Source: Fodinicola acaciae
Lineage (GTDB): Bacteria; Actinomycetota; Actinomycetes; Mycobacteriales; HKI-0501
Assembly (NCBI RefSeq): GCF_010993745.1
Contig: NZ_WOTN01000001.1
Location: 1,863,235-1,927,234 of the forward strand
Direction: 5' to 3'
Length of the DNA: 64,000 nt
The position numbers and the translations under genes are program-made. The notes under the pieces are model-generated. The model was not told where the DNA came from and searched no databases. It saw only the letters and a list, made by a program, of their open reading frames with translations. Below are positions 455 through 13,000 of this stretch, in pieces. Positions within the stretch are counted from its first letter, which is position 1. Each line of letters starts with the position of its first letter.

Positions 455-1744
455 TCAGGCGAGAAGCAGCGCCGCGTCCCACGGCGTACGCGGTGGCTCG
501 CCAGCGGCGTACGTGTGCAGCGCGAGCGCGATTCCCGCGGCGCCACCGACGAAACCCGGCCGGTCCGCGGGCCGCGGTGCCACGTACGGTGCATAGCGAA
601 AGCCAAACGGACACTCGGCGTCATAGTCGTCCATCGTCCGCACCGCGAGTGCGTCGGCGGCACTCCACAGCCCCGGATCGCCGGTGTCGCCGGCCATCCG
701 CACCGTGATCTGCAGCAACCCGGACCAGCCGTGGCACAGGCCGGCGTCGCGGATCGCCGGATAGTCGGCGGTCTGCACGGCACCGCGCAGCGCGGCGATC
801 GCGAGCTTGCGCCAGTCCGGCCGGTCGAGCGCGGCACCGGCCAGGAACAATGCGCGCGAGATGCCGCCGGCGCCATAGCACCAGGCGTCGCGGCCGCGCG
901 TACGCTCCGGCGGCTCGCGGTGGTCGGCGACCGACACCCAGGCCGGCCAGTACGGACCGGCGTCGTCCTCGACCAGCCACCGATCCAGGATGCCGACGAT
1001 CCGTTCGATCGCGGCGTCCTGTCCCCCGACGCGTACGCCGGCCCGCCAGCTCAGCGCCAGCAGCGCGAGCGGTCCGCTCACACCGTGCGCGATGCCGAGG
1101 TCCACTCCGCCGCCGGCGTTGTCGCTGCTCCAGCACGCCGCCACCGGTACGCCGTCGACGCGTACGTCCGGAGCCAACCCGGCGGCCACCAGACATGCCA
1201 GCACCTCGGCCAGCGGCTCCGCCAGGCCGCGCGCCAGCAGATAGCGGCCCACACCGGTGATGCCGCTGATCAGGTCGAGCCGGCCACCGCCCGGCGACCG
1301 GCCGGTTTCGACATCGTCGCGGTACGCCGAAGCCTGCCGGACACCAGCGGTGGCGACGTGCTCGTCGAGCCGCTCGAGCATCGCCGTGTAGCCGCCGTAG
1401 CTGGCCGCCGCGACATGGCCGGCGTATCCGACGCTGGCGGCTCCCATGAACAACTGCGTCCGCACGCCGCCGATCGCGCGCGACGCGGCCGCGAGATGAC
1501 CGTGTGCCGCCCGCCGCATCGCCGGATCCGTCGCGGCCAACTCGGCGAACAGCAGCGCGACACCCGGATGGCCTTCGCCGAGCGTGTCCGGCAGCCACAC
1601 CGGCACCGGCCGCGGCAGCGCGTCGTGCAGGTTGTCCGGAGCACTCGCGACCGCGGCGACCGCGTCCGGATCGGCCAGCCGGGCGGCGAGCTCCGCGACG
1701 ATGCCGCTCGCGCGTTCACGTTCAGACGTCCCGGCGTACGGCAC
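455..1744 (-). CDS. Stand-alone LanC-type lanthionine cyclase
   Basis: A 429-residue LanC-like protein. The three zinc-ligand blocks of the alpha-toroid fold are present: GIAHG with H220, WCYGAGG with C289, and LCHGWSG with C337/H338. LanC enzymes activate precursor Cys thiols on zinc and add them to dehydrated Ser/Thr to make (methyl)lanthionine rings. I chose GTG at 1744 because GGAGAG lies just upstream. This start overlaps the end of the oxygenase gene by 23 nt, and the longer reading gives an Arg/Trp/Cys-rich N-terminus unlike the family. It is last in the minus-strand run of precursors, dehydratase and two cupin proteins, and supplies the cyclase half that the dehydratase lacks. Start choice is moderately sure; family assignment is sure. 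Confidence 0.88.
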   Translation of the reverse strand: MPYAGTSERERASGIVAELAARLADPDAVAAVASAPDNLHDALPRPVPVWLPDTLGEGHPGVALLFAELAATDPAMRRAAHGHLAAASRAIGGVRTQLFMGAASVGYAGHVAAASYGGYTAMLERLDEHVATAGVRQASAYRDDVETGRSPGGGRLDLISGITGVGRYLLARGLAEPLAEVLACLVAAGLAPDVRVDGVPVAACWSSDNAGGGVDLGIAHGVSGPLALLALSWRAGVRVGGQDAAIERIVGILDRWLVEDDAGPYWPAWVSVADHREPPERTRGRDAWCYGAGGISRALFLAGAALDRPDWRKLAIAALRGAVQTADYPAIRDAGLCHGWSGLLQITVRMAGDTGDPGLWSAADALAVRTMDDYDAECPFGFRYAPYVAPRPADRPGFVGGAAGIALALHTYAAGEPPRTPWDAALLLA

Positions 1745-2915
1745 GGAAGCTCTCCAACGTCTCCAGCAGCGCGCGGCCAGCTTCTCCGTCCGCCGTGACC
1801 GGCTGGCCGTCGCGCAGCCGGTCCAGCAGCGGCCGCAGTCGCGCGCCAAACGACGTCACCTGACCGTTGGCCGCACAAAGGCCACCGGCGATCGCGATCT
1901 CCTCCACTGGTCGCACGACTGTGCCGTCGGTCAGCGGCACACGCGGCGCGGGTGGCGGCACCGGACGGAAGCCGCCGGCAGTCCGTATCCGCAACGACCG
2001 GTCGGCCGTACGCCTCGCCAGCTGGTGGTCGGCGAGCTGGCGGAAATGCCGCAGCGCGTCGGCCATCGCCGGCGCCAGGCCGGCCGGCTCGGTGATCGCC
2101 GTCGAGGCTCCGGCCGGCGCGTCGAACTGGCGAAAGCCGAGGCCCGGATCGGCCAGCAGCGCCGGATCCGCGTTCAGCAGCAGGTCGTCGAGGTCGTACG
2201 CGGCGCGGTGTCCCTCTCGCGGCACACCGATGTTGACGCTGGTGGCGGCGGTGTCGCCGGCACTCTCGCCGACGTGGAAATAGCTGGACGGCCAGTAGAG
2301 CAACTCACCGGGACCAACCTCGGCGGCGAAGGAGTCGGCCACGTACGGCTGGTAGTCCAGCACGGTGCTGACCGGCGCGGTCCACGGCCGGCTCGGCCAG
2401 AACCGCATCCGTTTGCGGCCGGAGAGGCCGAACATGAAGGTGGCGAACCGGTCCTTGTGGACGCCGACCGGACTGTGCTCGTACGTGCCGTGGAACAACG
2501 TCGTGATGGCGCCGCTCAACGGCAGGCCGACCCGCTGCCACAGGCCGGCGTAGAAGTCGCGCTCACGCTTCCACTGCGGGAAACAGAAGCCGTGGAAGCC
2601 GTGTACGACCAGCGCGTACCGGCGGCCGCCGAGCCGCTCGGCGACTCGCTTCTGATAGCCGGCGAGGCTGGCATCGGCGCCTTCCGGCAGCAGGTCGCCG
2701 CGGCTGACCTGCTGCCGGCGCTCGACGGTGAACTGTGCGTTTGGCGGGATCAGGCCCGGCTCCAGCTCGGCGGTCGCCCGCACCGCGGCCTGATAGACCT
2801 CGTCCTCCTGGAACGGCGCCCACGGCAGGTGCCGGACCAGCACCGGCCGGCGGTCCCAGAACCGCTCGACGAAGACATCCCAGTCCAGCGTGTCCAGCTC
2901 AGCGATGTCGGACAT
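1722..2915 (-). CDS. JmjC/cupin-like Fe(II)/2-oxoglutarate oxygenase-family protein
   Basis: A 397-residue protein with a cupin core. H153-x-D155 (GVHKDRFATF) and H214 (SSYFHVGES) form a plausible 2-His-1-Asp iron triad. The spacing and the RKRMRFWP strand resemble the cupin_4/JmjC ribosomal-oxygenase-like group, which hydroxylates protein side chains. I read ATG at 2915; a longer frame adds a basic, low-complexity leader. The gene starts 3 nt after the stop of a second cupin gene and overlaps the start of the LanC gene, so it is co-transcribed with lanthipeptide biosynthesis. I infer a tailoring oxygenase on the precursor. The substrate residue is unknown, though both precursor cores share a His. 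Confidence 0.75.
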   Translation of the reverse strand: MSDIAELDTLDWDVFVERFWDRRPVLVRHLPWAPFQEDEVYQAAVRATAELEPGLIPPNAQFTVERRQQVSRGDLLPEGADASLAGYQKRVAERLGGRRYALVVHGFHGFCFPQWKRERDFYAGLWQRVGLPLSGAITTLFHGTYEHSPVGVHKDRFATFMFGLSGRKRMRFWPSRPWTAPVSTVLDYQPYVADSFAAEVGPGELLYWPSSYFHVGESAGDTAATSVNIGVPREGHRAAYDLDDLLLNADPALLADPGLGFRQFDAPAGASTAITEPAGLAPAMADALRHFRQLADHQLARRTADRSLRIRTAGGFRPVPPPAPRVPLTDGTVVRPVEEIAIAGGLCAANGQVTSFGARLRPLLDRLRDGQPVTADGEAGRALLETLESFRAVRRDV

Positions 2916-2917
2916 CG

Positions 2918-4009
2918 TCAGGCCCCTTCTCCGACCAGTTCGAACGCGTACAGCCGATAGAGCGCGCTCAGCAGCCTGACCACGGCGTCGACCCGATCCG
3001 CGGCGTTCATCGCGTCGCACAGCTGGCCGACGCCGACCTCACGACCCAGCGGCAGCTCGGCGAGCAGCCGGTCACCGGCGCGGCCGGACAGCGGCAGGCC
3101 GTGGCCGTTCACGGTCCAGATCCACCGGTCGGATCCGGCCGGCACGCGCGCGATCTCGGCCGTCCGGCGGATCCGCGTGCCGGTGGTCAGCGACGCCGGC
3201 GGCCGCGGCGCGACTGGTTCCAGGCCACCGGCCGACCACCGCTTCGCCGCCTGTACGCGCAAAGTCCGTTCGACCACCACCGAGTTGACCGCCTCGCGAA
3301 ACTCCTCGGCGACCCTGGCGACCGGCCGCACGGTCTCGCCGACCGGCACGTACGGCACGGCGTCGCCGTCTCGCCGCGCGTCCAGCGCCTCGGCGAGCGC
3401 GTCCTTCACCGCGACGAAGGCGAGCCGGCCGTCGGTCGGCACGCGCAGCCGCAGCATCACGCAACGATCGACGGTGTCGGCGGCTCGCCGGCCGGCCGGC
3501 CGGAAAAGCAGCTCTCCGGCCGAAACCGCGGCGCCGTCGGCCGTACGCAGCGACCCGGTCAATATCCAGGCCAGCTCGGCATGCGTCTCCCCTGCCGTCA
3601 CCGTCGACTCTCCGTCGCCGGCCACCAGCTCCGGCACGACGGACAGGCTCGGCCACCCGACCCGGCGCCACAGCGCACGCAGTTCGTCGCGTACGGCCGA
3701 CCAGTGCGCGAAGTCGAGCAACAGCGGCTGCTCGACGGTCAGCTGGCAACCCCGTACGCGGTCGAGGTAGCCGTCGAAGCTCTGATCTGCGGCGTCCGGC
3801 AGGAGCTCGCCGGGCGCGCGGATCACGCCGTCCGCGGCGCGAAACCGTACGTCCGGCAGCGCGCCGAAGCGCGTACCGGCACGAAACGGCGCACACGCCT
3901 CGACCGTCAGACCGAAGGCCGCCGACAGGCCGATCGGCGCGGCCGCCGGCACGACCGTCGCCTCGCGCAGCCAGTGGCGGCTCACGACCTCGGACCAGTT
4001 GCCGGTCAT
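2918..4009 (-). CDS. Degenerate cupin/JmjC-like partner protein
   Basis: A 363-residue paralogue of the adjacent oxygenase: similar size, similar order of segments (GELLPDAADQSFDGYL against GDLLPEGADASLAGYQ) and a matching GWPSLS/GLPLSG core strand. The proximal metal motif is H143-x-E145 instead of HxD. The distal His is absent: the strand reads LLFRPAGRRAAD where the partner has LLYWPSSYFH. I infer either a non-catalytic partner that binds substrate in a heterodimer or an enzyme with altered metal binding. ATG at 4009 overlaps the stop of the dehydratase gene (ATGA), which indicates translational coupling. A longer N-terminal frame runs inside the upstream gene and is rejected. Confidence 0.65.
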   Translation of the reverse strand: MTGNWSEVVSRHWLREATVVPAAAPIGLSAAFGLTVEACAPFRAGTRFGALPDVRFRAADGVIRAPGELLPDAADQSFDGYLDRVRGCQLTVEQPLLLDFAHWSAVRDELRALWRRVGWPSLSVVPELVAGDGESTVTAGETHAELAWILTGSLRTADGAAVSAGELLFRPAGRRAADTVDRCVMLRLRVPTDGRLAFVAVKDALAEALDARRDGDAVPYVPVGETVRPVARVAEEFREAVNSVVVERTLRVQAAKRWSAGGLEPVAPRPPASLTTGTRIRRTAEIARVPAGSDRWIWTVNGHGLPLSGRAGDRLLAELPLGREVGVGQLCDAMNAADRVDAVVRLLSALYRLYAFELVGEGA

Positions 4010-6315
4010 GACGCGAACCGCTGTCGCAGCTGCTCGGCGTAGTCCTCGAGAGACAGCAGTCCCATGGCTCTCCTGCGTTCTTCGACGTGGTCGGGGTCCT
4101 CGATCCGGCACGGCACGAACTCGCCGTCCACCCGGTCGAACTTGGTGCCATAGAGCTGCGGCCGGCCTTCGGCGAGCCGGATCGTGTCGGTGACGTACGC
4201 GAGCTCGCGGAGCGGGAAGTCACCGGCCTCGGCGGCCGCCGTCATCAGCTCCAGGCAGCGGCGCTGCAGCGGCAGATCATCCTCCAGATGCTGGACCAGC
4301 CGGCTGGCCGCCAGCGTCGCCGCCGTACCGACGGTCGAGCGACCTGGCCAGCCGTGCTCGTCAAGGACGTCGCGCAGCCAGCCGGCCGCCGATCTGGTGA
4401 GCGTCGTCAGCCTGCGGTGCAGCGACTCGTCGGCGAAGCCGCCGCGCGCCCACGGCATCCGCAGCCGGCCGTCCAGCCGGTCCAGCCGCAGCAGCCGCTG
4501 CCTGATCTCCGCGACCGCCGGCACCGGCTCCTCCACCAACGGCGTGTCGATCGCGTCGATGGCCAGCCGCATCGCCGCGCCGCTCCAGCGATAGGTGATC
4601 CGGCGGCCGGCCCGCGGCCAGTCGAAGGTCGCCGAGCCGTCGGCGGGTCCGTACAGCCGCAGGCGCAGGCCGAGGTCCGGATCGTCGACATGGAGCGAAG
4701 GAATGTCGTCGAAGACATGCTCGATGGCGTCGCGCAGCGCCGTGCCGAGAGTGGCGAGGTCGAGCCGGCCCGTCGCCGCCGTCAGCTCCACGTCGTCGGT
4801 CAGCTCACCGGTGAGATGGCGCAGCGGTCCGCCGTGGACGGCGCGGAAGAAATACGGCACGTCGCCCTGGTCGAGCTGTTGTCTCTCGGCCGCGTCGAAA
4901 TCGGCCGCGGCTGGCTCGCCGCTGACCCACTCGGCCTGCAATGCCCGCACGTACTCGGCGGTCGACCGGCGTACGACGCGTACGACCGCGTCCCCGGCCT
5001 CGGCGACCAGGTCGTGGATCGCGGTGCGGTGCCGGCACATCAACGTCCAGCAGTCGAACATGCCGCGTAACATCGCCGGCAGATAGCCGCCATAGCCGGC
5101 GTTGCCGGCGGTGTCGCCGACCACTGACCGAGTGGTCGTGCGGGTGATGGACTCGTCGCGTACGCGCAGGGACAACGCGCCGTCCGGGCCACGGGTCCAG
5201 CACACCGGATGGCCGTCGATGTCACACCAGCGCGGCTCGTTTTCCAGGCCGACATGGTGTGTCGTCGAGGCGGACGGCGCGTAGACCAGCGTGGTGTGCG
5301 ACAGTCGTGGCGCCTGCGTGAAAAACATCTCCAGGTCGACCGGATAGAGCATCGGATCACCGCCTGGCCGCGCGCCGGCCAGCAGGTTGCCGCCGTGCAG
5401 ATCCGTGATGCCAAAGGCAAAACAGGCGGCGGCCAGGGCGCCGGCGCGGCGCCAGAACCTCGCGGCCTCGACCGGCTCCAGCCGTGTGCCGGCCAGCTCG
5501 TACGGTCCCTCGCGCCGCAACACACCCCACTGCCGCGGCCGCTCGACCCACTCCTGCCAGGAATAGTCACCGCGATCCGCGCCTTCGCCGCGCCAACTCG
5601 GCAGCACCGGCAGCCGCACCTCGCCCGAGGCCGACGGCAAACCGTTGAGCAGGGCGAAAACCGAGGTCCGCGGGTCGTCGCCGAGAAAGAGCAGCTCACC
5701 AGAGGCCGGTCGTGGTTTGTACGCGACGCTGCCACCGCCGGCCAGGTCGACCCGAATGACCCGCTGGCCGCCATTGTGGGTTTCCTCGCCATGCATCCAC
5801 AATCCGGTGACCGGCCAGCGCAGCTCCGGACGGTCGGGCCAGGCCGGCAGGTCACGGCAGAGGCGGTCGAGAAAGCGGTCGAGCAATGTCTCGGTCTGCG
5901 CGCGCCGCAGGCCGACGAACTCGGCGACCGACGGCCGGTTTGCCGCGCACACAACGAAAGCCTCGCGGACGAACGGCGCGAACAGGTCGGCATTCGTGAC
6001 CGTCAACAAATCGGCCGGCACGTCCGGTGCGTACGTCGACGCGGCCACCGTGCACCAGGCGGCGAGATGGTCGAGCGCCACACACAACGGCGCGAATCGC
6101 CGCGTATGCAACGAATGCGCGAGCGCACGAGCGTCCGACTCACCGCTCAACCAGTGCTGAAACGCGACCGTGCGATCAGGACCGTCGGTCACCACCGGCG
6201 GAAACATCGGGCCGGCGACACCGGCGCGTACCGCCGCGACCAGCAACCCCGCGGCACCTGGCGGATCGGAGCCGTCCGCGCCGGGATCAACCAGCGTCCA
6301 CACGTCTGTCGTCAC
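4006..6315 (-). CDS. LanM-type dehydratase (DUF4135) lacking the cyclase domain, with DUF6624-like tail
   Basis: A 769-residue protein. Residues ~100-650 match the LanM N-terminal dehydratase, which phosphorylates Ser/Thr of a precursor and eliminates phosphate. Key blocks are AYKPRP (K200), FGITDLHGGNLL (D305, H307, N310) and YPVDLEMFF (D327, E329). A normal class II LanM is about 900-1100 residues and ends in a LanC domain; that domain is missing here and is encoded separately at 455-1744. The last ~100 residues instead resemble DUF6624: QRRCLELM, RPQLYGTKF, IEDPDHVEERRRAMGL. GTG at 6315 is preferred because GAGAGA precedes it; the longer frame starting MHLHFLLLL overlaps the precursor gene in another frame. 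The start is moderately sure, the family sure. Confidence 0.85.
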   Translation of the reverse strand: MTTDVWTLVDPGADGSDPPGAAGLLVAAVRAGVAGPMFPPVVTDGPDRTVAFQHWLSGESDARALAHSLHTRRFAPLCVALDHLAAWCTVAASTYAPDVPADLLTVTNADLFAPFVREAFVVCAANRPSVAEFVGLRRAQTETLLDRFLDRLCRDLPAWPDRPELRWPVTGLWMHGEETHNGGQRVIRVDLAGGGSVAYKPRPASGELLFLGDDPRTSVFALLNGLPSASGEVRLPVLPSWRGEGADRGDYSWQEWVERPRQWGVLRREGPYELAGTRLEPVEAARFWRRAGALAAACFAFGITDLHGGNLLAGARPGGDPMLYPVDLEMFFTQAPRLSHTTLVYAPSASTTHHVGLENEPRWCDIDGHPVCWTRGPDGALSLRVRDESITRTTTRSVVGDTAGNAGYGGYLPAMLRGMFDCWTLMCRHRTAIHDLVAEAGDAVVRVVRRSTAEYVRALQAEWVSGEPAAADFDAAERQQLDQGDVPYFFRAVHGGPLRHLTGELTDDVELTAATGRLDLATLGTALRDAIEHVFDDIPSLHVDDPDLGLRLRLYGPADGSATFDWPRAGRRITYRWSGAAMRLAIDAIDTPLVEEPVPAVAEIRQRLLRLDRLDGRLRMPWARGGFADESLHRRLTTLTRSAAGWLRDVLDEHGWPGRSTVGTAATLAASRLVQHLEDDLPLQRRCLELMTAAAEAGDFPLRELAYVTDTIRLAEGRPQLYGTKFDRVDGEFVPCRIEDPDHVEERRRAMGLLSLEDYAEQLRQRFAS

Positions 6316-6365
6316 GCTTTCTCTCGCGCGGGTGACGGCCGACCGCGGCCGCCACCCGCCGGCGA

Positions 6366-6536
6366 TCACCAGCAGTAGTAGGAAATGCAGGTGCAATAGC
6401 GGCAGCCGGAGACGGTGCCGACATGCGTCGTGGACGCGGTGATGTCGTCCAGCGCCGGGATTTCCGTCTCCAGGTCACCGATCACCAGGTCGAAGTCGGC
6501 GTCGGCTTCCCGGATTTCCGTTACGGGTGCGGTCAT
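6366..6536 (-). CDS. Lanthipeptide-type precursor peptide 1
   Basis: A 56-residue peptide. An acidic leader (ADFDLVIGDLETEIPALDD) is followed by a Thr/Ser-rich stretch (TASTTHVGTVSG) and a Cys-rich end, CRYCTCISYYCW. The strong AAGGTGGAGAGA ribosome site before ATG at 6536 supports the start. It sits 50 nt upstream of the dehydratase start and is probably co-transcribed with it. The leader, the cleavable-looking boundary around DDITAS and the four Cys fit a RiPP substrate. Leader similarity to FxLD or thiopeptide-type leaders is noted, but the enzymes present are LanM-type dehydratase and LanC. Exact cleavage site and rings cannot be read from sequence. Confidence 0.85.
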   Translation of the reverse strand: MTAPVTEIREADADFDLVIGDLETEIPALDDITASTTHVGTVSGCRYCTCISYYCW

Positions 6537-6574
6537 TCTCTCCACCTTTCACCTCGAGGGTGCGGACGGCCTAG

Positions 6575-6603
6575 AGAATGACCGGAAAACCGCCCCCATG
6601 CAA
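6575..6603 (-). promoter_or_regulatory. Candidate promoter of precursor 1
   Basis: On the minus strand TTGCAT (6598-6603) and CATTCT (6575-6580) are 17 nt apart and about 40 nt upstream of the precursor 1 start. The same block (GGTCATTCTCTAG followed by CCGTCCG) recurs upstream of precursor 2. Conservation between the two copies is what suggests function; the -10 match itself is weak. Confidence 0.4.
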
Positions 6604-6668
6604 GGCCGTTTCGAAAAAATCCCGGATTCCGTGGTTTCCAACAGAAAACCTTCTCCGACCTTGCAGAT

Positions 6669-6845
6669 TCAGAAGCAGTAGACGGAAATGCAGGTGCACA
6701 GGTCACAACTGGTGCCGGTGTTCAGATGCGAGCCGGACGCGACGACGTCGTCCAGCGCCGGGATTTCCGCTTCCAGATCCCCGATCACCAGGTCGAAGTC
6801 GGCCTCAGCCGGGGTCGTCTCGACTGTCATCACAGGTGCGGTCAT
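6669..6845 (-). CDS. Lanthipeptide-type precursor peptide 2
   Basis: A 58-residue paralogue of the neighbouring precursor. The leader core is nearly identical (ADFDLVIGDLEAEIPALDD). The next part differs (VVASGSHLNTGTS) and the end keeps the pattern CDLCTCISVYCF against CRYCTCISYYCW. Conserved positions are all four Cys, the TCIS block, one His ten to twelve residues before the first Cys, and a final aromatic residue. ATG at 6845 follows GGGTGG; an upstream in-frame ATG three codons earlier is less well placed. A tandem duplication that also copied the promoter is the simplest origin. The products could be a two-component system or two variants. Confidence 0.85.
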   Translation of the reverse strand: MTAPVMTVETTPAEADFDLVIGDLEAEIPALDDVVASGSHLNTGTSCDLCTCISVYCF

Positions 6846-6883
6846 TCGTTCCACCCTTCAGCATGGACGTACGGACGGTCTAG

Positions 6884-6913
6884 AGAATGACCCGGAAATC
6901 CGAGACATGGCAA
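6884..6913 (-). promoter_or_regulatory. Candidate promoter of precursor 2
   Basis: On the minus strand TTGCCA (6908-6913) and CATTCT (6884-6889) are separated by 18 nt, ~40 nt upstream of precursor 2. The block matches the one before precursor 1, so the duplication unit included promoter plus coding sequence. The -10 hexamer is weak. Confidence 0.4.
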
Positions 6914-7028
6914 GGGTTTCGGCAAAATCGCAACCGTCCCAGCAAAAAGCCTGCCGGCACCTTGCGAAAACCTTGCGGCTGCGGCGGCTCTTGCCGAAAC
7001 AGCAAGCTTTCGTCCGACCCGGCGAAGT

Positions 7029-7046
7029 TGAGTAGCGCATTACTCA
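7029..7046. promoter_or_regulatory. Inverted repeat TGAGTA-N6-TACTCA between divergent genes
   Basis: Perfect 6-nt arms with a 6-nt spacer (GCGCAT) lie in the 265-nt gap between precursor 2 and the Ser/Thr kinase gene. The position suits an operator for either side; the binding protein is unknown. Confidence 0.35.
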
Positions 7047-7110
7047 TGTGTTCCCGGGCGGTCGGTGCACACACTTCCTCGGTTGACGCGCGTACGACAG
7101 AGGGGACGGC

Positions 7111-8940
7111 ATGGACGGCACCGATCGTGACGCGGCGCGCCTTGTCGCCGGTCGCTATCTCATCCGCGAGCCCGTCGGACAGGGCGGCATGGGCCGGGTC
7201 TGGCGCGCGTACGACCAACTGCTCGGCCGCCAGGTCGCACTGAAGGAGCTGATCCGGCCGGCCGCCGACCTGACCGAGCGGCTGCTGCGCGAAGCGCGTT
7301 TTGGTGCGCGGCTGCGGCACCCTGGGATCGTGCACGTCCACGATGTCGTCACCGACGGCGACAGCCAGTGGATCGTCATGGAGCTGATCGACGGCCACAG
7401 TCTGGAGGATCTGGTCCTGGCGAACGGACCGCTGCCACCCGACCGGGTCGCCGAGATCGGCCTTGAGCTGCTCGACGCCCTGACCGTCGCGCACCAGCAC
7501 GGTGTCATCCACCGCGACGTCAAACCGGCGAACGTCCTGATCGACGCCACCGGCGCCGTACACCTGACCGACTTCGGTATCGCCTTCGAGCTCAGCCAAA
7601 GTCCGCTGACCGCCACCGGTGCGGTGATCGGCTCGCCGCAGTACATGGCGCCGGAACGCGTACGCGGCGAGACGCCGACGGCCGCCAGTGACCTGTTTTC
7701 GGTTGGCGCGACGCTGTACGCGGCGGTCGAAGGCCGGCCACCGTTCGGCCGGCCAGGCCAGGTGCCGACGCTCGCCGCCGTGCTCAGCGATCCACCCGAC
7801 CCGGTCGATCGCGCCGGTCCACTCGCGCCGATTTTGGCCGGTCTGCTGGAAAAGGAGCCGACTCGACGGACCGACGCCGACACTGCGAAACGCCAGCTCG
7901 CCAACCTGAGCGACACCGTCATCGCGCCGGCGCTTTCGTCAGCATCCGCGCCAAAACCTGCCAATCGGCGGTTCCGATGGCCGGTCCTCGCCACTGCCGC
8001 GGTATTGGCGCTTGCGGCGGCCTGTGTGGTCATCGCTTTTCGACCGCAGCCGATTGGTCACCATGCGACCAAAACAACCGCGATCGGCCGGTTTTTCGTA
8101 CGTACGCCGGCGGACTGGACGCCGATCGCCAGCTCCGACGACCAACCGCGGCCCGGCATCGCGCCGCCGGACAACCGGCAGGTTGCCGTACAGATCTGGT
8201 TGGCCCCCAACAACGAAGCGGCACTGCGAGACCTGGCCATCACGGAGACGACGTACCGCGTCGAGCGGCCGGGATATCGCCGGATCAGCCTCAACCTCGC
8301 GCCGTTCGCCGGCAGCGCGGAAGGCGCGAAGTGGGAATGGACGTGGCGTGACAACGGCGTCACGCGCAGGGTCCTGCAGCATGCCGTACAGGATCAGGAC
8401 GGCCGGCTCTACGTCCTCTCGTACGCGGCACCGGCCGGCGATTTCGTCACGTACCAAAAGGATGTCGATGCCATCGTCGCATCGGCCCGGCTGGACACAT
8501 CGGCCGAGCCGAGGTCGCTCCTGCCGGTCGTCGCCGAAGGTGTCAGCGCTTCCGTACCGACCGGTTGGAAAAGCCGGCCGCACGCCGGCGGGAAAGGTAC
8601 GGACTTCTATCGGCCGGCGGCACCGGCGGCGTACCTGACCTTCAGCCGCGAGCCGGCCGACAGCTATTTCGTCAACGGCTATGACTGGACGACTTTCTGG
8701 GCCGGCCAACCCGGTGAGACCGGCTATCAGTTGCTCAGTCGCGCGCCGGTGGTCTACGCCGGCGTCAGAAGCAGCGGACGGTGGGACTATTTCGTCACCT
8801 CCAGCAAAGGCGTACGCCTGAAGGTCCGCGCTTTTGCCGCGATCACTGACAAGAAGCTGTATCGGCTGCTGTGTGTCGCACCGGGCGGCATCGAGCAAAC
8901 CTGCGACCAGGTGGCCGCGACGGTGACCGTCGCCCGCTGA
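7111..8940 (+). CDS. Membrane Ser/Thr protein kinase, PknB-type catalytic domain
   Basis: A 609-residue receptor-like Hanks kinase. The glycine loop is GQGGMGRVW, the catalytic Lys is K45, the catalytic loop is HRDVKPAN (D136), followed by DFG (154-156) and MAPE (179-182). A single membrane helix lies at ~290-310 (WPVLATAAVLALAAACVVIAF). About 300 residues would be outside the cell; they show no PASTA repeats, only two similar-sized beta-rich halves that each contain a (T/S)PADW- or VPTGW-like start. It autophosphorylates and signals to cytoplasmic targets by analogy with PknB. It is divergent from the lanthipeptide precursors, so a regulatory link is possible but unproven. The ATG start is well defined. 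Confidence 0.9.
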   Translation: MDGTDRDAARLVAGRYLIREPVGQGGMGRVWRAYDQLLGRQVALKELIRPAADLTERLLREARFGARLRHPGIVHVHDVVTDGDSQWIVMELIDGHSLEDLVLANGPLPPDRVAEIGLELLDALTVAHQHGVIHRDVKPANVLIDATGAVHLTDFGIAFELSQSPLTATGAVIGSPQYMAPERVRGETPTAASDLFSVGATLYAAVEGRPPFGRPGQVPTLAAVLSDPPDPVDRAGPLAPILAGLLEKEPTRRTDADTAKRQLANLSDTVIAPALSSASAPKPANRRFRWPVLATAAVLALAAACVVIAFRPQPIGHHATKTTAIGRFFVRTPADWTPIASSDDQPRPGIAPPDNRQVAVQIWLAPNNEAALRDLAITETTYRVERPGYRRISLNLAPFAGSAEGAKWEWTWRDNGVTRRVLQHAVQDQDGRLYVLSYAAPAGDFVTYQKDVDAIVASARLDTSAEPRSLLPVVAEGVSASVPTGWKSRPHAGGKGTDFYRPAAPAAYLTFSREPADSYFVNGYDWTTFWAGQPGETGYQLLSRAPVVYAGVRSSGRWDYFVTSSKGVRLKVRAFAAITDKKLYRLLCVAPGGIEQTCDQVAATVTVAR

Positions 8941-8991
8941 CCGGACGGGTAACGCGCGGCGCTTCGCCTGACGAGCCGGCTGCTCGCGCGG

Positions 8992-9014
8992 CCGGTTACC
9001 GGTAAAATGCCGCC
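8992..9014 (+). promoter_or_regulatory. Candidate leaderless promoter of the LAL gene
   Basis: A good -10 hexamer, TAAAAT (9003-9008), ends six bases before ATG at 9015, and there is no Shine-Dalgarno sequence in between. In actinobacteria this arrangement is typical of leaderless mRNAs. A small palindrome, CCGGT-T-ACCGG (8992-9002), abuts the -10 and could be an operator. Confidence 0.45.
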
Positions 9015-11630
9015 ATGCCGCCGCTTCTGCCGGTCATCGGCCGGATGGAAGAGCTCGACACGCTGTTGGCGCTGCTCGACCAGGGGACGGCCGGCGTCGT
9101 CGTCGCCGGCGAGGCCGGTGTCGGCAAGACGCGGCTGATCCGTGAGCTGCTGCGACGGGTCGAGGCGGCCGGCCATCCGGTGCGGTCGGCGACCGCGACC
9201 GCCTCACTCGCCTGCGTGCCGTTCGGCGTGTTCGCCAACCTCGTTCCGACGCGCGGAAATCCGGCCGAGCTGCTGACGCAGGCCGTGGAAGTGCTCGGCT
9301 CGCTCAACGGTGAGCGCCGGCTGGTGCTCGCGGTCGACGACGCGCACCTCCTGGACGGCATGTCGGCGGGTGTGTTGCAGTTGGTGACGGCGAATCGTGC
9401 GGCTTTTGTCGTTGTGACCGTACGATCCGGCGAGCCGGTCCCCGATGCCGTACGCGCGTTGTGGAAGGACGAACACGCCGATCTGCTTGAGCTGCAGCCA
9501 CTTTCGCGCAGCGAGACCGGCGAGTTGGCCGCGACCTTGCTCGGTGGCCATCCCGACGCGGACTGCCTGCGCCGGCTCTGGGAAATCAGCCGCGGCAGTC
9601 CGCTGGTCGTACGCGAGGTGGTGGCGGTCGGTCGCCGGCGAAACGCTTTGGTCGAGCGGCACGGCGTGTGGTCCTGGCCCGGCGACGTGCTGATCGGCAC
9701 GCAGCTGTCGCAGCTGGTGGAAGACCGGCTGAAAGACCTGACGCCAGAGCAACGGTCCGCGCTGGAGCTCGTCGCACTCGCCGAGCCGGTCGGCCTCGAC
9801 CTGGTCGGCGCGTCGGTCGACACCGCGGTGCTGGAAAGCCTGGAAGTCGCGGGGCTGCTGACCAGCGCGGCGGACGGTCTGCGGCATCAGGTGCAGGTGG
9901 CACATCCGTTGTATGCCGAGACCGTACGACAGGGCCTGGTTTTTCTGCGTCGCCGTGGCGCATACCGCAAACTCGCGGAGGCATTGGCCGCGGTGGGTTG
10001 CCGCCGGCGGGACGACCAGGTCCGGCTCGCGCTGTGGCAGGTCGAGGCCGGCGTCGCCACCGACCGGCAGTTGTTGGCCGCGGCGGCCAGTCAGACTCTG
10101 GCGGTCTACGAGCACTCGCTCGCCGAGCGGTTGGCGCGCGCCGCGCGGTCGGCCGGACCGTACCTGCCGGCCGACCTCACGCTTGCGCAAAGTTTGCAAT
10201 GGCAGGGCCGTTTCACCGAGGCGCAGGACGTTCTCGACGCGGTGGATCTCGACGCGGCCACGCCGGGACAAATCGCCGACCATGCGATCATCGGCAGCGG
10301 CAACTCGTTTTTCGGCCACGGCCTGCTTTCCGCCGCGGAGGCCGAGCTGCAGGCGGCGCAGCGGCGACTTTCCGGCCATCCCGAGCAAACTCGCGTGATC
10401 GCGCACCGGATCACCCTCGAGTTCACCACCGGCGAGATGACCAAGGTGCTGGCAACCACCGACGAGCTGCTGCGCATCGCGGCCGGCGACGCGGAAAGCC
10501 GCGTGTGGGCCACCTTCATGCGGTTCGCCGCGTTGAGCATGACCGGCCGGATGGAGACCGCGCTGGCATTCGTGGAGCCGGTCGAAAAGGACGCGGCGGA
10601 GTTTCCGCGTGGACAGGTGGTGGTCGCCAACATCGTCAGCGGACGTTGCACGGCATACCGTTTCATCGGCGACCTCGACACCGCCGAGTCGCTCGCCGAG
10701 GCCGGCTATCAGCAAACGCTTGGCTGGCGCGGAAACAGTGGTTGGTGGCCGCTGGTGCTCGGCCAGGTCGCGTCAAACCGCGGCCAGATGTCGAAGGCCG
10801 CGACGCTTCTCCGCGAGGCGACGGCCGCGCTTGTTTTCGAGGACATGGACCGCGTACGACGTTGGGCGCTCAGTGATTTGGCGCAGGCGCTGGCACATCT
10901 TGGCGATCTGGAGACGGCGCGGTCAGCCGTGGCCGAGGCCGACAGCAGTGGCCTCCACGCGTATCAGTGGCTGGAATCCGGTGTCGTACGCGCAAAAGCC
11001 TGGATCGCCGCGGCCGAGTCGCGATTCGTCGACGCCCGGCGGCTGGCAGCAACGGCCGCCGACATCGCCGCGACGAAACAAGAAGTCGTTTTCGAACTGG
11101 AAGCGGCACACGACGCGTTGCGGCTCGGCGACCTGCGCGCCGCGACCCGCATCCGCCGGATCGCGACCGGTGTCGAGGGAAAACTCGCGCCCGCGTACAC
11201 GCGACACGCGATCGCCCGCGCTGCCGGCGATGCGGCTTCTTTGCAAGATTCGGCAACGGAATTCGCCAATCTCGGCATGTTATTGTTGGCCGCTGAGGCG
11301 GCCGCGGAGGCTGCCAACGCGTACCGGCTGACCGGCGACAAGCGCGCGGAGATTGCCGTCACCGAACAGGCTCGCGCCTGGCTGACCGAATGCGGCACGG
11401 TCCGTACGCCCGCGCTCGCGCCGATCCTCGGCGACCACCCGTTGACAGCGTTGACCGCACGAGAGCGCGAAATCGCGCAGATCGCCGCGGCAAACGTGAG
11501 CAGCAAAGCCATTGCCGACCAGTTGCGGCTGTCCGTGCGTACGGTCGACAATCATTTGGCCCGTGTCTACCAGAAGCTCAACATCACCGGTCGCAGCGAA
11601 CTGATCGGCCTGTTCAAGGATCCCGGTTGA
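9015..11630 (+). CDS. LAL-type (large ATP-binding, LuxR family) transcriptional regulator
   Basis: An 871-residue protein. The N-terminal AAA/NTPase has Walker A GEAGVGKT (32-39) and Walker B LVLAVDDAH (103-111). A long helical TPR-like middle follows. The C-terminal LuxR helix-turn-helix (~810-871) reads LTAREREIAQIAA and SVRTVDNHLARVYQKLNI. LAL proteins activate transcription in response to ligand and ATP binding, often in secondary or sugar metabolism. It lies 74 nt after the kinase gene on the same strand but has its own likely leaderless promoter. The size is normal for the family. Target genes are unknown; the nearby lanthipeptide cluster is one candidate. Confidence 0.92.
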   Translation: MPPLLPVIGRMEELDTLLALLDQGTAGVVVAGEAGVGKTRLIRELLRRVEAAGHPVRSATATASLACVPFGVFANLVPTRGNPAELLTQAVEVLGSLNGERRLVLAVDDAHLLDGMSAGVLQLVTANRAAFVVVTVRSGEPVPDAVRALWKDEHADLLELQPLSRSETGELAATLLGGHPDADCLRRLWEISRGSPLVVREVVAVGRRRNALVERHGVWSWPGDVLIGTQLSQLVEDRLKDLTPEQRSALELVALAEPVGLDLVGASVDTAVLESLEVAGLLTSAADGLRHQVQVAHPLYAETVRQGLVFLRRRGAYRKLAEALAAVGCRRRDDQVRLALWQVEAGVATDRQLLAAAASQTLAVYEHSLAERLARAARSAGPYLPADLTLAQSLQWQGRFTEAQDVLDAVDLDAATPGQIADHAIIGSGNSFFGHGLLSAAEAELQAAQRRLSGHPEQTRVIAHRITLEFTTGEMTKVLATTDELLRIAAGDAESRVWATFMRFAALSMTGRMETALAFVEPVEKDAAEFPRGQVVVANIVSGRCTAYRFIGDLDTAESLAEAGYQQTLGWRGNSGWWPLVLGQVASNRGQMSKAATLLREATAALVFEDMDRVRRWALSDLAQALAHLGDLETARSAVAEADSSGLHAYQWLESGVVRAKAWIAAAESRFVDARRLAATAADIAATKQEVVFELEAAHDALRLGDLRAATRIRRIATGVEGKLAPAYTRHAIARAAGDAASLQDSATEFANLGMLLLAAEAAAEAANAYRLTGDKRAEIAVTEQARAWLTECGTVRTPALAPILGDHPLTALTAREREIAQIAAANVSSKAIADQLRLSVRTVDNHLARVYQKLNITGRSELIGLFKDPG

Positions 11631-11687
11631 TCTGCCAACCTGCGGCGCGCTCGGCCCGTCGGATTCTCTTAGAGTGCGGCAAAATAG

Positions 11688-11696
11688 TTATCCACA
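11688..11696 (+). promoter_or_regulatory. Perfect DnaA-box sequence TTATCCACA
   Basis: The consensus DnaA box occurs once, 50 nt upstream of the DUF222-HNH start, in an AT-richer patch. No second box, dnaA or dnaN is nearby, so it is not an origin. It may link expression of the downstream gene to DnaA or be chance. Confidence 0.4.
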
Positions 11697-11746
11697 GATG
11701 TGTTTGGTGGCGTGGTTTTGTCGGTGGGGCCGGTATTATTGGAGGC

Positions 11747-13000
11747 ATGACCACTCCTTCCGTCACCACCGCGCCAGTCGGTGACCCATGGCCGGAAGAA
11801 GACGCGGACGCGCTCGCGGCGATGCTGCGCGAGGCGGAGCGGGAGTATCGCAAGGCCGCTGCGCGGGTGTTGAATATCGTGAAGGCGATTGAGCACAAAG
11901 AGGCGTACGAGAAGCTGCAGGCCAAGAATATCCAGCAGCTGTTGGAAGACCAGTTGCTGCTCTCCCCGACCGAGGCCAGTCGCCGGGTGCAGCGCGCTCG
12001 CGCGTTCTGTCCGGGCATGGCGTTGACCGGTGAGATGTTGGCGCCGAAGCTGGACCTCGCCGCCCAAGCCATGCGCCGCGGCGACCTCGCCGACTCGCAG
12101 CTGGACGCGATCCGTACGGTGATCACGAGGTTGCCGGCGCACGTCGATTTCCAGCAGCGGCGTGAAGCCGAGGCGGCGATGGTCGAGGGCGCCAAGCACA
12201 TGGACGCCGGCCGGCTCTATCGGCTCGGCACCCGGTTGCATGCCTATCTGGACCCCGATGGTGCCGCGCCGTCGGACAAGGACGATGCGAAGCCTCGGCG
12301 GGAGTTGCACCTGCACACCGGTCGCGACGGCCGCCTCGCGTTGCGCGGCATTCTCGACGCCGAGACCGGCAGTCTGTTGCAGGAAGTGTTGTCACCGCTG
12401 GCAAAGCCGGAAGGCGAGGATGGCAAGCCCGATCCTCGATCGGCCGCCGAGCGCAATGGTGACGCGTTGGCCGACATCCTCAACCTGGTCGCTGATGCCG
12501 GGAAGTTGCCGATCCAGGGCGCCGAGCGGCCGCACCTGACGGTGACGATCTCCTGGGAGATGCTCCGCGACTGTCTGGATGTGGCGCGCGCGTACGAAGG
12601 CCTGACCCTCAGCCCCGAAACCGCCCGCCGGCTGGCCTGCGACGCGGACATTATTCCGGTCATCCTGAACTCGGAAGGCGTCCCGCTGGATGTCGGCCGC
12701 AAGGAGCGGCTGGCCGGCCCAGAGTTGCGGAAAGCGTTGATCGCACGAGACAAAGGTTGCACCCGGCCCGGATGTACGCGGCCGGTCCGGCACACGAGGG
12801 CGCATCACATCGTGTCGTGGGTGGACGGTGGCACCACCTGTCTGGAAAATTGCGTGCTGCTGTGCGACCGCCATCACCGCGAAATTCACCACACCGACTG
12901 GACCATACGGATGAACAACGGCCATCCCGAGTTCATCCCACCACTCGATGTGGACTACGAGCAAAAGCCGCTGCGAAATACCTACCACCTGTACGGCTGA
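11747..13000 (+). CDS. DUF222 / HNH endonuclease-domain protein (13E12-repeat type)
   Basis: A 417-residue protein. Residues ~10-330 form the helical DUF222 region. The C-terminal HNH nuclease carries CTRPGCTRP, HHIVSWVDGG and CDRHHREIH, which give the paired Cys and His residues of the beta-beta-alpha metal fold. GGAGG at 11741-11745 precedes ATG at 11747; a longer frame running back into the LAL gene is discarded. These genes are abundant and often multicopy in actinobacterial genomes. They are thought to be nuclease or mobile-element-related, but the role of the chromosomal copies is not established. It stands alone, next to IS remnants. Confidence 0.9.
   Translation: MTTPSVTTAPVGDPWPEEDADALAAMLREAEREYRKAAARVLNIVKAIEHKEAYEKLQAKNIQQLLEDQLLLSPTEASRRVQRARAFCPGMALTGEMLAPKLDLAAQAMRRGDLADSQLDAIRTVITRLPAHVDFQQRREAEAAMVEGAKHMDAGRLYRLGTRLHAYLDPDGAAPSDKDDAKPRRELHLHTGRDGRLALRGILDAETGSLLQEVLSPLAKPEGEDGKPDPRSAAERNGDALADILNLVADAGKLPIQGAERPHLTVTISWEMLRDCLDVARAYEGLTLSPETARRLACDADIIPVILNSEGVPLDVGRKERLAGPELRKALIARDKGCTRPGCTRPVRHTRAHHIVSWVDGGTTCLENCVLLCDRHHREIHHTDWTIRMNNGHPEFIPPLDVDYEQKPLRNTYHLYG

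Follow-up and report, generated by a model that had tools for sequence, protein, structure and literature searches.

The 64,000-nucleotide stretch of Fodinicola acaciae DNA analyzed here (the window) carries an operon that probably belongs to a family of lanthipeptide-like RiPPs. Judged from conserved residues and a predicted structure, its product would be made from one or more precursors by a dehydratase-DUF6624 synthetase, a pair of inactive and active JmjC proteins and an optional LanC. Gene content, gene order, catalytic residues and peptide motifs are conserved among the loci compared. In this enzyme set, lanthipeptide machinery is rearranged in an unusual way, and the set occurs in few other actinobacteria among the genomes sampled. 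The elements of the window are:

455..1744, minus strand: free-standing LanC cyclase, zinc ligands Cys, Cys-His; position of the N-terminus approximate
1722..2915, minus strand: JMJC, a RoxA/YcfD/NO66-like Fe(II)/2-oxoglutarate oxygenase (JmjC_2) that keeps HxD...H
2918..4009, minus strand: CUPA, a JmjC-like paralog with an incomplete iron-ligand set; probable partner protein
4006..6315, minus strand: synthetase, 769 aa, LanM-type dehydratase domain (DUF4135) and C-terminal DUF6624, LanC domain absent
6316..6365, minus strand: strong hairpin separating precursor gene 1 from the synthetase gene (-36.1 kcal/mol, z -3.45 for 6312-6368)
6369..6536, minus strand: precursor gene 1, 56 aa, ATG at 6536, stop codon 6366-6368
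6537..6610, minus strand: upstream block of gene 1, TTGC-N19-CATTCTCTAG, then GGTGGA ahead of the ATG; putative promoter
6672..6845, minus strand: precursor gene 2, 58 aa, ATG at 6845, stop codon 6669-6671
6846..6925, minus strand: upstream block of gene 2, TTGC-N20-CATTCTCTAG; putative promoter

Tandem precursor genes and their relatives

An earlier note on this DNA had described two tandem precursor genes on the minus strand, and both are real (open frames 6366-6536 and 6669-6845). The leader ADFDLVIGDLExEIPALDD and the tail CxxCTCISxYC-(W/F) are present in both peptides as it had reported. A constant leader and a constant C-terminal Cys motif enclose a variable middle, which gives them the look of RiPP precursors. 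The two are 66% identical, and a third precursor is found in the same genome within a second copy of the cluster. Codon counts appear consistent with real precursor genes, pS and pN being 0.36 and 0.24 between genes 1 and 2, and 0.70 and 0.31 between gene 1 and the distant paralog. The precursors had no family match in Pfam, NCBIfam or PHROGs, and their sequence letters had no match in the open-licence literature.

The 130-nt regions upstream of genes 1 and 2 align with a score of 120, compared with a mean of 46.5 (sd 5.4) for 1000 dinucleotide shuffles, none of which reached 120. This homology is far above chance, and it follows that each precursor gene was duplicated jointly with its upstream region, as had been claimed. 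The spacing given for the shared block, TTGC-N17/18, has to be corrected to N19 for gene 1 and N20 for gene 2; 17/18 is the gap only when the hexamers are taken as TTGCAT/TTGCCA and CATTCT. Since a sigma-70 consensus scan of 6250-7115 reported no promoter, a promoter function can be assigned to these blocks only putatively. A likeness is also seen between the region upstream of gene 2 and its counterpart in Fodinicola feengrottensis (67 compared with 45 in shuffles, 0/1000). Several CTTGC/GCAAG words, which are possible regulator sites, are crowded upstream of both precursors (6600-7015). On the other side of gene 1, the hairpin at 6316..6365 is a possible attenuator that would favor precursor over enzyme mRNA.

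The silent sigma-70 scan, together with the absence of an exporter nearby, could be taken to mean that the locus is a relic, in which duplicated blocks and precursors persist after expression or modification was lost. However, the precursor frames are open and have ribosome-binding sites, pN is lower than pS in all six pairs among four Fodinicola precursors, the leader is retained in precursors from other families and orders, and all the operon enzymes of the window cluster are open frames. We consider a relic highly improbable.

Homologous precursors were compared from 19 loci (the window, L004, L017, L051, L052, L065-L076, L081 and L090). Every locus has a precursor adjoining the synthetase gene, and a second one is present in the window and at L081, which gives 21 peptides. 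The leader pattern alone identified eighteen of them, and a pattern of leader or tail the other three; for the L004 precursor the leader-pattern listing gave no start codon. Only two elements are constant across the 21, namely the leader, with consensus F/L-D-L/V-V/T-I-G-D/E-L-E-x-x-I/V-P, and the tail [S/T]C-x3/4-YC, which with one or two further residues (x1/2) is the C-terminal end of every peptide. The fixed C-terminal ring suggested from the window peptides therefore survives in this narrower Cys motif, and the wider CxxCTCIS-aromatic pattern does not: the CxxC pair is missing from the six precursors of LanC-less loci, TCIS is confined to the two window peptides (2/21) and a final aromatic residue is found in 4/21. 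A fixed ring defined by TCIS plus an aromatic end was rejected, since homologs lack that pattern. Fifteen different tails are found among the first 20 precursors, and the 21st, from Nonomuraea, ends in SCATFYCC.

A second, independent tandem duplication occurred at L081 (genome G1274, 8323-8864); the duplicated precursor, which is 42 aa long and belongs to this family, has a diverged core. The tails of this pair are VTCEKVYCV and VTCAQIYCW, and their upstream DNA is also homologous (score 81 compared with 42 in shuffles, 0/1000); in this pair pN (0.13) is not lower than pS (0.10). The earlier note had offered two-component or variant lanthipeptides as models for the window pair. Variants fit better, and a two-component lantibiotic is disfavored because both window cores have the same single pattern and share a single synthetase.

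A dehydratase ending in DUF6624

In Pfam, the window synthetase scores 82.4 bits for DUF4135 (cut-off 29) and 37 bits for DUF6624 (PF20329; cut-off 27), with no LANC_like match. Both domains occur in all six synthetases scanned (the window, its paralog and four others), with DUF6624 at 37 to 62 bits. The NCBIfam LanM model (TIGR03897) gives 50.6 bits, below its cut-off of 304. A fused C-terminal LanC domain is absent from the synthetases, LANC_like being either a separate gene or missing.

The sequence match between the synthetase and CylM is weak (E 0.11). The predicted model, with a mean pLDDT of 73 and weak stretches in the kinase-like core, aligns over residues 17-558 with CylM 97-687 (Z 15.8) and also aligns with LicM2 (Z 15.4), and these two were the only strong Foldseek matches. 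CylM residues H254, K274, D347, N352, R506 and T512, which we take to have catalytic roles in the dehydratase, correspond to H181, K201, D306, N311, R447 and T453 of P0003. All six are invariant in 16 synthetases when mapped by HMMER alignment, the broken F. feengrottensis row being left out of the count. CylM D252 is replaced by Glu. H349 varies, being His in the Fodinicola proteins and Ile or Gly in the others. By alignment and model, this part of the protein is a predicted class II LanM dehydratase domain that retains putative kinase and elimination residues. The genome has another DUF4135 match (G000:C2:2241336-2242451), which lies in an open frame of 1026 codons that probably encodes an ordinary full-length LanM.

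The cyclase part of CylM has no counterpart in the model alignment. DUF6624 stands where LanM has its cyclase, and the label "lanthipeptide" therefore needs a caveat. One interpretation of this position at the synthetase end is that DUF6624 is itself a cyclase, or the maker of a non-thioether bond, so that the tail would be closed by new chemistry and the products would form a RiPP class of their own. The existence of genomes without LanC fits such a role, as does the association of DUF6624 with graspetide groups 18, 20, 23 and 42, for which the accessible text of PMC13097080 suggests an undiscovered enzyme class. However, the ATP-grasp neighbors in graspetide clusters need no thioether cyclase, and a binding or partner role fits equally. 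Residues 598-766 form a helical domain with only middling PDB matches (best Z about 7) and no pointer to catalysis, and a Cys might also add to a dehydro residue without an enzyme. A bond-forming DUF6624 seems unlikely.

Companion enzymes and the extent of the family

The order precursor-synthetase-CUPA-JMJC is kept at all 19 loci, each of which has a full synthetase. When 16 loci and the initial 20 kb of window sequence were compared by their ORFs of at least 110 codons, four enzyme genes recurred beyond close relatives: the synthetase, CUPA, JMJC and LanC. Some of the further rows are antisense frames of these four genes or flanking DNA that close relatives have in common. Exporter, protease and immunity genes do not recur alongside the cluster in this comparison, which is unusual for a lantibiotic and counts against the lanthipeptide-like reading. 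The flanking genes at four LanC-less loci and at L081 are mutually unrelated. Two genes divergent from the window precursors, a PknB-like Ser/Thr kinase (7111-8940) and a LuxR-type AAA regulator (9015-11630), were considered and rejected as cluster members, as neither had a match at any of the 16 loci compared.

JMJC matches RoxA/YcfD/NO66 both by sequence and by fold. It has the JmjC fold and the HxD...H iron ligands of a JmjC_2 enzyme, and the ligands are kept in 17/17 proteins. CUPA is a paralog of JMJC (e.g., 28% identity, E 5e-11) in which the iron-ligand Asp is missing in 16/16 proteins examined. The pattern HxA...H, known from 2OG halogenases, is kept by CUPA in ten loci (L051 and L065-L073; the L051 gene pair lies at 4989-7718) and not in others. 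A halogenase role was rejected, since the distal His is missing in the window, L004 and L076, and L074 is deleted at the first motif. From these residues, CUPA is likelier to be a pseudo-enzyme partner than a 2OG halogenase. In the available portions of the sources, BipG, a JmjC protein of the biphenomycin pathway, is described as hydroxylating ornithine (PMC12707348), and RRE-like domains fused to JmjC, with bacterial relatives in RiPP-like settings, are reported (PMC12710340).

LanC is the optional member of the set. It is present at 14/19 loci, and the LanC proteins examined have intact zinc ligands; no copy was found at L052, L074, L075, L076 or L081 (the L081 sequence stops 3.3 kb past JMJC). 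In two whole genomes, G286 and G816, LanC gave no match at E<=1e-5, and the other three genomes with LanC-less loci have matches elsewhere at 32-38% only; in two LanC-bearing control genomes the cluster LanC was recovered at 54-55%. All 15 precursors at LanC loci have four Cys and all six at LanC-less loci have two. The link between LanC and four Cys cannot be counted as many independent events, because LanC presence changes only once or twice on the synthetase tree (17 rows, L017 and L090 not included). The LanC protein scores 24.9 bits against the class III cut-off of 575 and 38.5 bits against the class IV cut-off of 650, and it has no fused kinase, which sets the cluster apart from the LanKC/LanL kinase-lyase-LanC fusions of classes III and IV.

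The intact LanC at 14 loci could indicate an ordinary class II cluster, in which LanM has merely come apart into a dehydratase and a stand-alone LanC while DUF6624 and the JmjC proteins are non-core accessories. A literature pipeline would indeed place LanC with DUF4135 in class II, as far as the accessible part of PMC7268733 tells, and LanC-bearing members of the family may be among its class II entries. A split LanM is nevertheless unlikely, given that DUF6624 is present in 6/6 synthetases scanned and the JmjC pair at 19/19 loci. LanC is missing at five loci and from two whole genomes, so that the dispensable part is LanC and not the JmjC pair. A more novel view would be a separate RiPP class, in which dehydratase-DUF6624 and the dead/live JmjC pair alone would make an oxidized macrocycle from [S/T]C-x3-YC with no LanC. 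DUF6624 would then be the missing cyclase or a new bond-former, and LanC a second-ring add-on in some lineages. We regard this as possible, though doubtful.

A second complete cluster copy is present in the same genome (L004, G000:C1:2655000-2672000), with one precursor and a LanC of its own and a synthetase 67% identical to that of the window. A further copy is found in Fodinicola feengrottensis HKI 0501 (L017). There, the synthetase and LanC are split over several frames (5937-11910), probably through assembly errors in a genome that is 74% complete. In overlapping genome samples, full-length synthetases were found in 3/394 genomes of the class (including F. acaciae itself), 13/392 of genus g64, 1/200 of family f31, where a second genome matched in DUF6624 only, and 1/396 of the phylum, this one being F. 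acaciae; none was found in 35 genomes of family f32 or 22 of f34, empty results that show little. Nonomuraea gerenzanensis also has a full-length synthetase, and a genome-contig scan gave one relative only. DUF6624 alone occurs in many more genomes than the full-length synthetase.

Proposed biosynthesis and comparison with known systems

In the lanthipeptide-like pathway that we favor, the leader would recruit the enzymes, perhaps via winged-helix-like C-terminal domains of JMJC and CUPA. Because the catalytic residues are conserved and the Ser/Thr before the tail Cys is invariant, the synthetase would be expected to phosphorylate and eliminate core Ser/Thr, among them the residue that immediately precedes the first tail Cys. 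The final Cys of [S/T]C-x3/4-YC could then add to the dehydro residue, closing a seven- or eight-residue ring with no need for LanC. Where present, LanC may close a second thioether from the extra Cys pair and an upstream Ser/Thr. The active JMJC, aided by the degenerate CUPA, would oxidize a residue of the invariant tail, for which Tyr and Cys are candidates. In the F. acaciae genome, where the precursor was duplicated along with its upstream region and the whole cluster is present twice, a single strain encodes three variants.

DUF6624, flagged in graspetide clusters in 2026 (PMC13097080, in its accessible text), is tied here by direct fusion to a lanthipeptide-type dehydratase, and its role thus becomes testable in a four-gene system. 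The LanC-less loci, where the core is only some nine residues long (e.g., VTCEKVYCV), offer a simple setting for studying how a dehydrated peptide is closed in the absence of LanC, and they also suit the question of how the JmjC pair acts on a Cys/Tyr tail. Mining tools that need a fused LanM or a nearby LanC would give these clusters low scores or overlook those that lack LanC. No description of the dehydratase-DUF6624 and JmjC pair architecture was found in the open-licence literature searched.

JMJC shares HxD...H, the JmjC fold and a C-terminal winged-helix-like part with RoxA/YcfD and NO66, and with BipG a place for a JmjC protein in a RiPP pathway (available text of PMC12707348). It differs from all of these in always being paired with a degenerate paralog and a lanthipeptide-type dehydratase. 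Graspetide clusters of groups 18, 20, 23 and 42 likewise have DUF6624 in a RiPP setting, and group 18 also carries an oxygenase pair; in those clusters, as the accessible part of PMC13097080 describes them, DUF6624 lies beside the graspetide synthetase, whereas in the window family it is fused to the dehydratase. The window LanC resembles stand-alone LanC proteins such as NisC and PDB 8byk in sequence and zinc ligands. NisC pairs with LanB, whereas the window LanC partners a LanM-type dehydratase. With the LanM enzymes CylM and LicM2, the window family has in common the dehydratase fold, most catalytic residues and a small leader-bearing precursor with a Ser/Thr/Cys core; it differs in carrying DUF6624 in place of the fused LanC, with LanC separate or absent.
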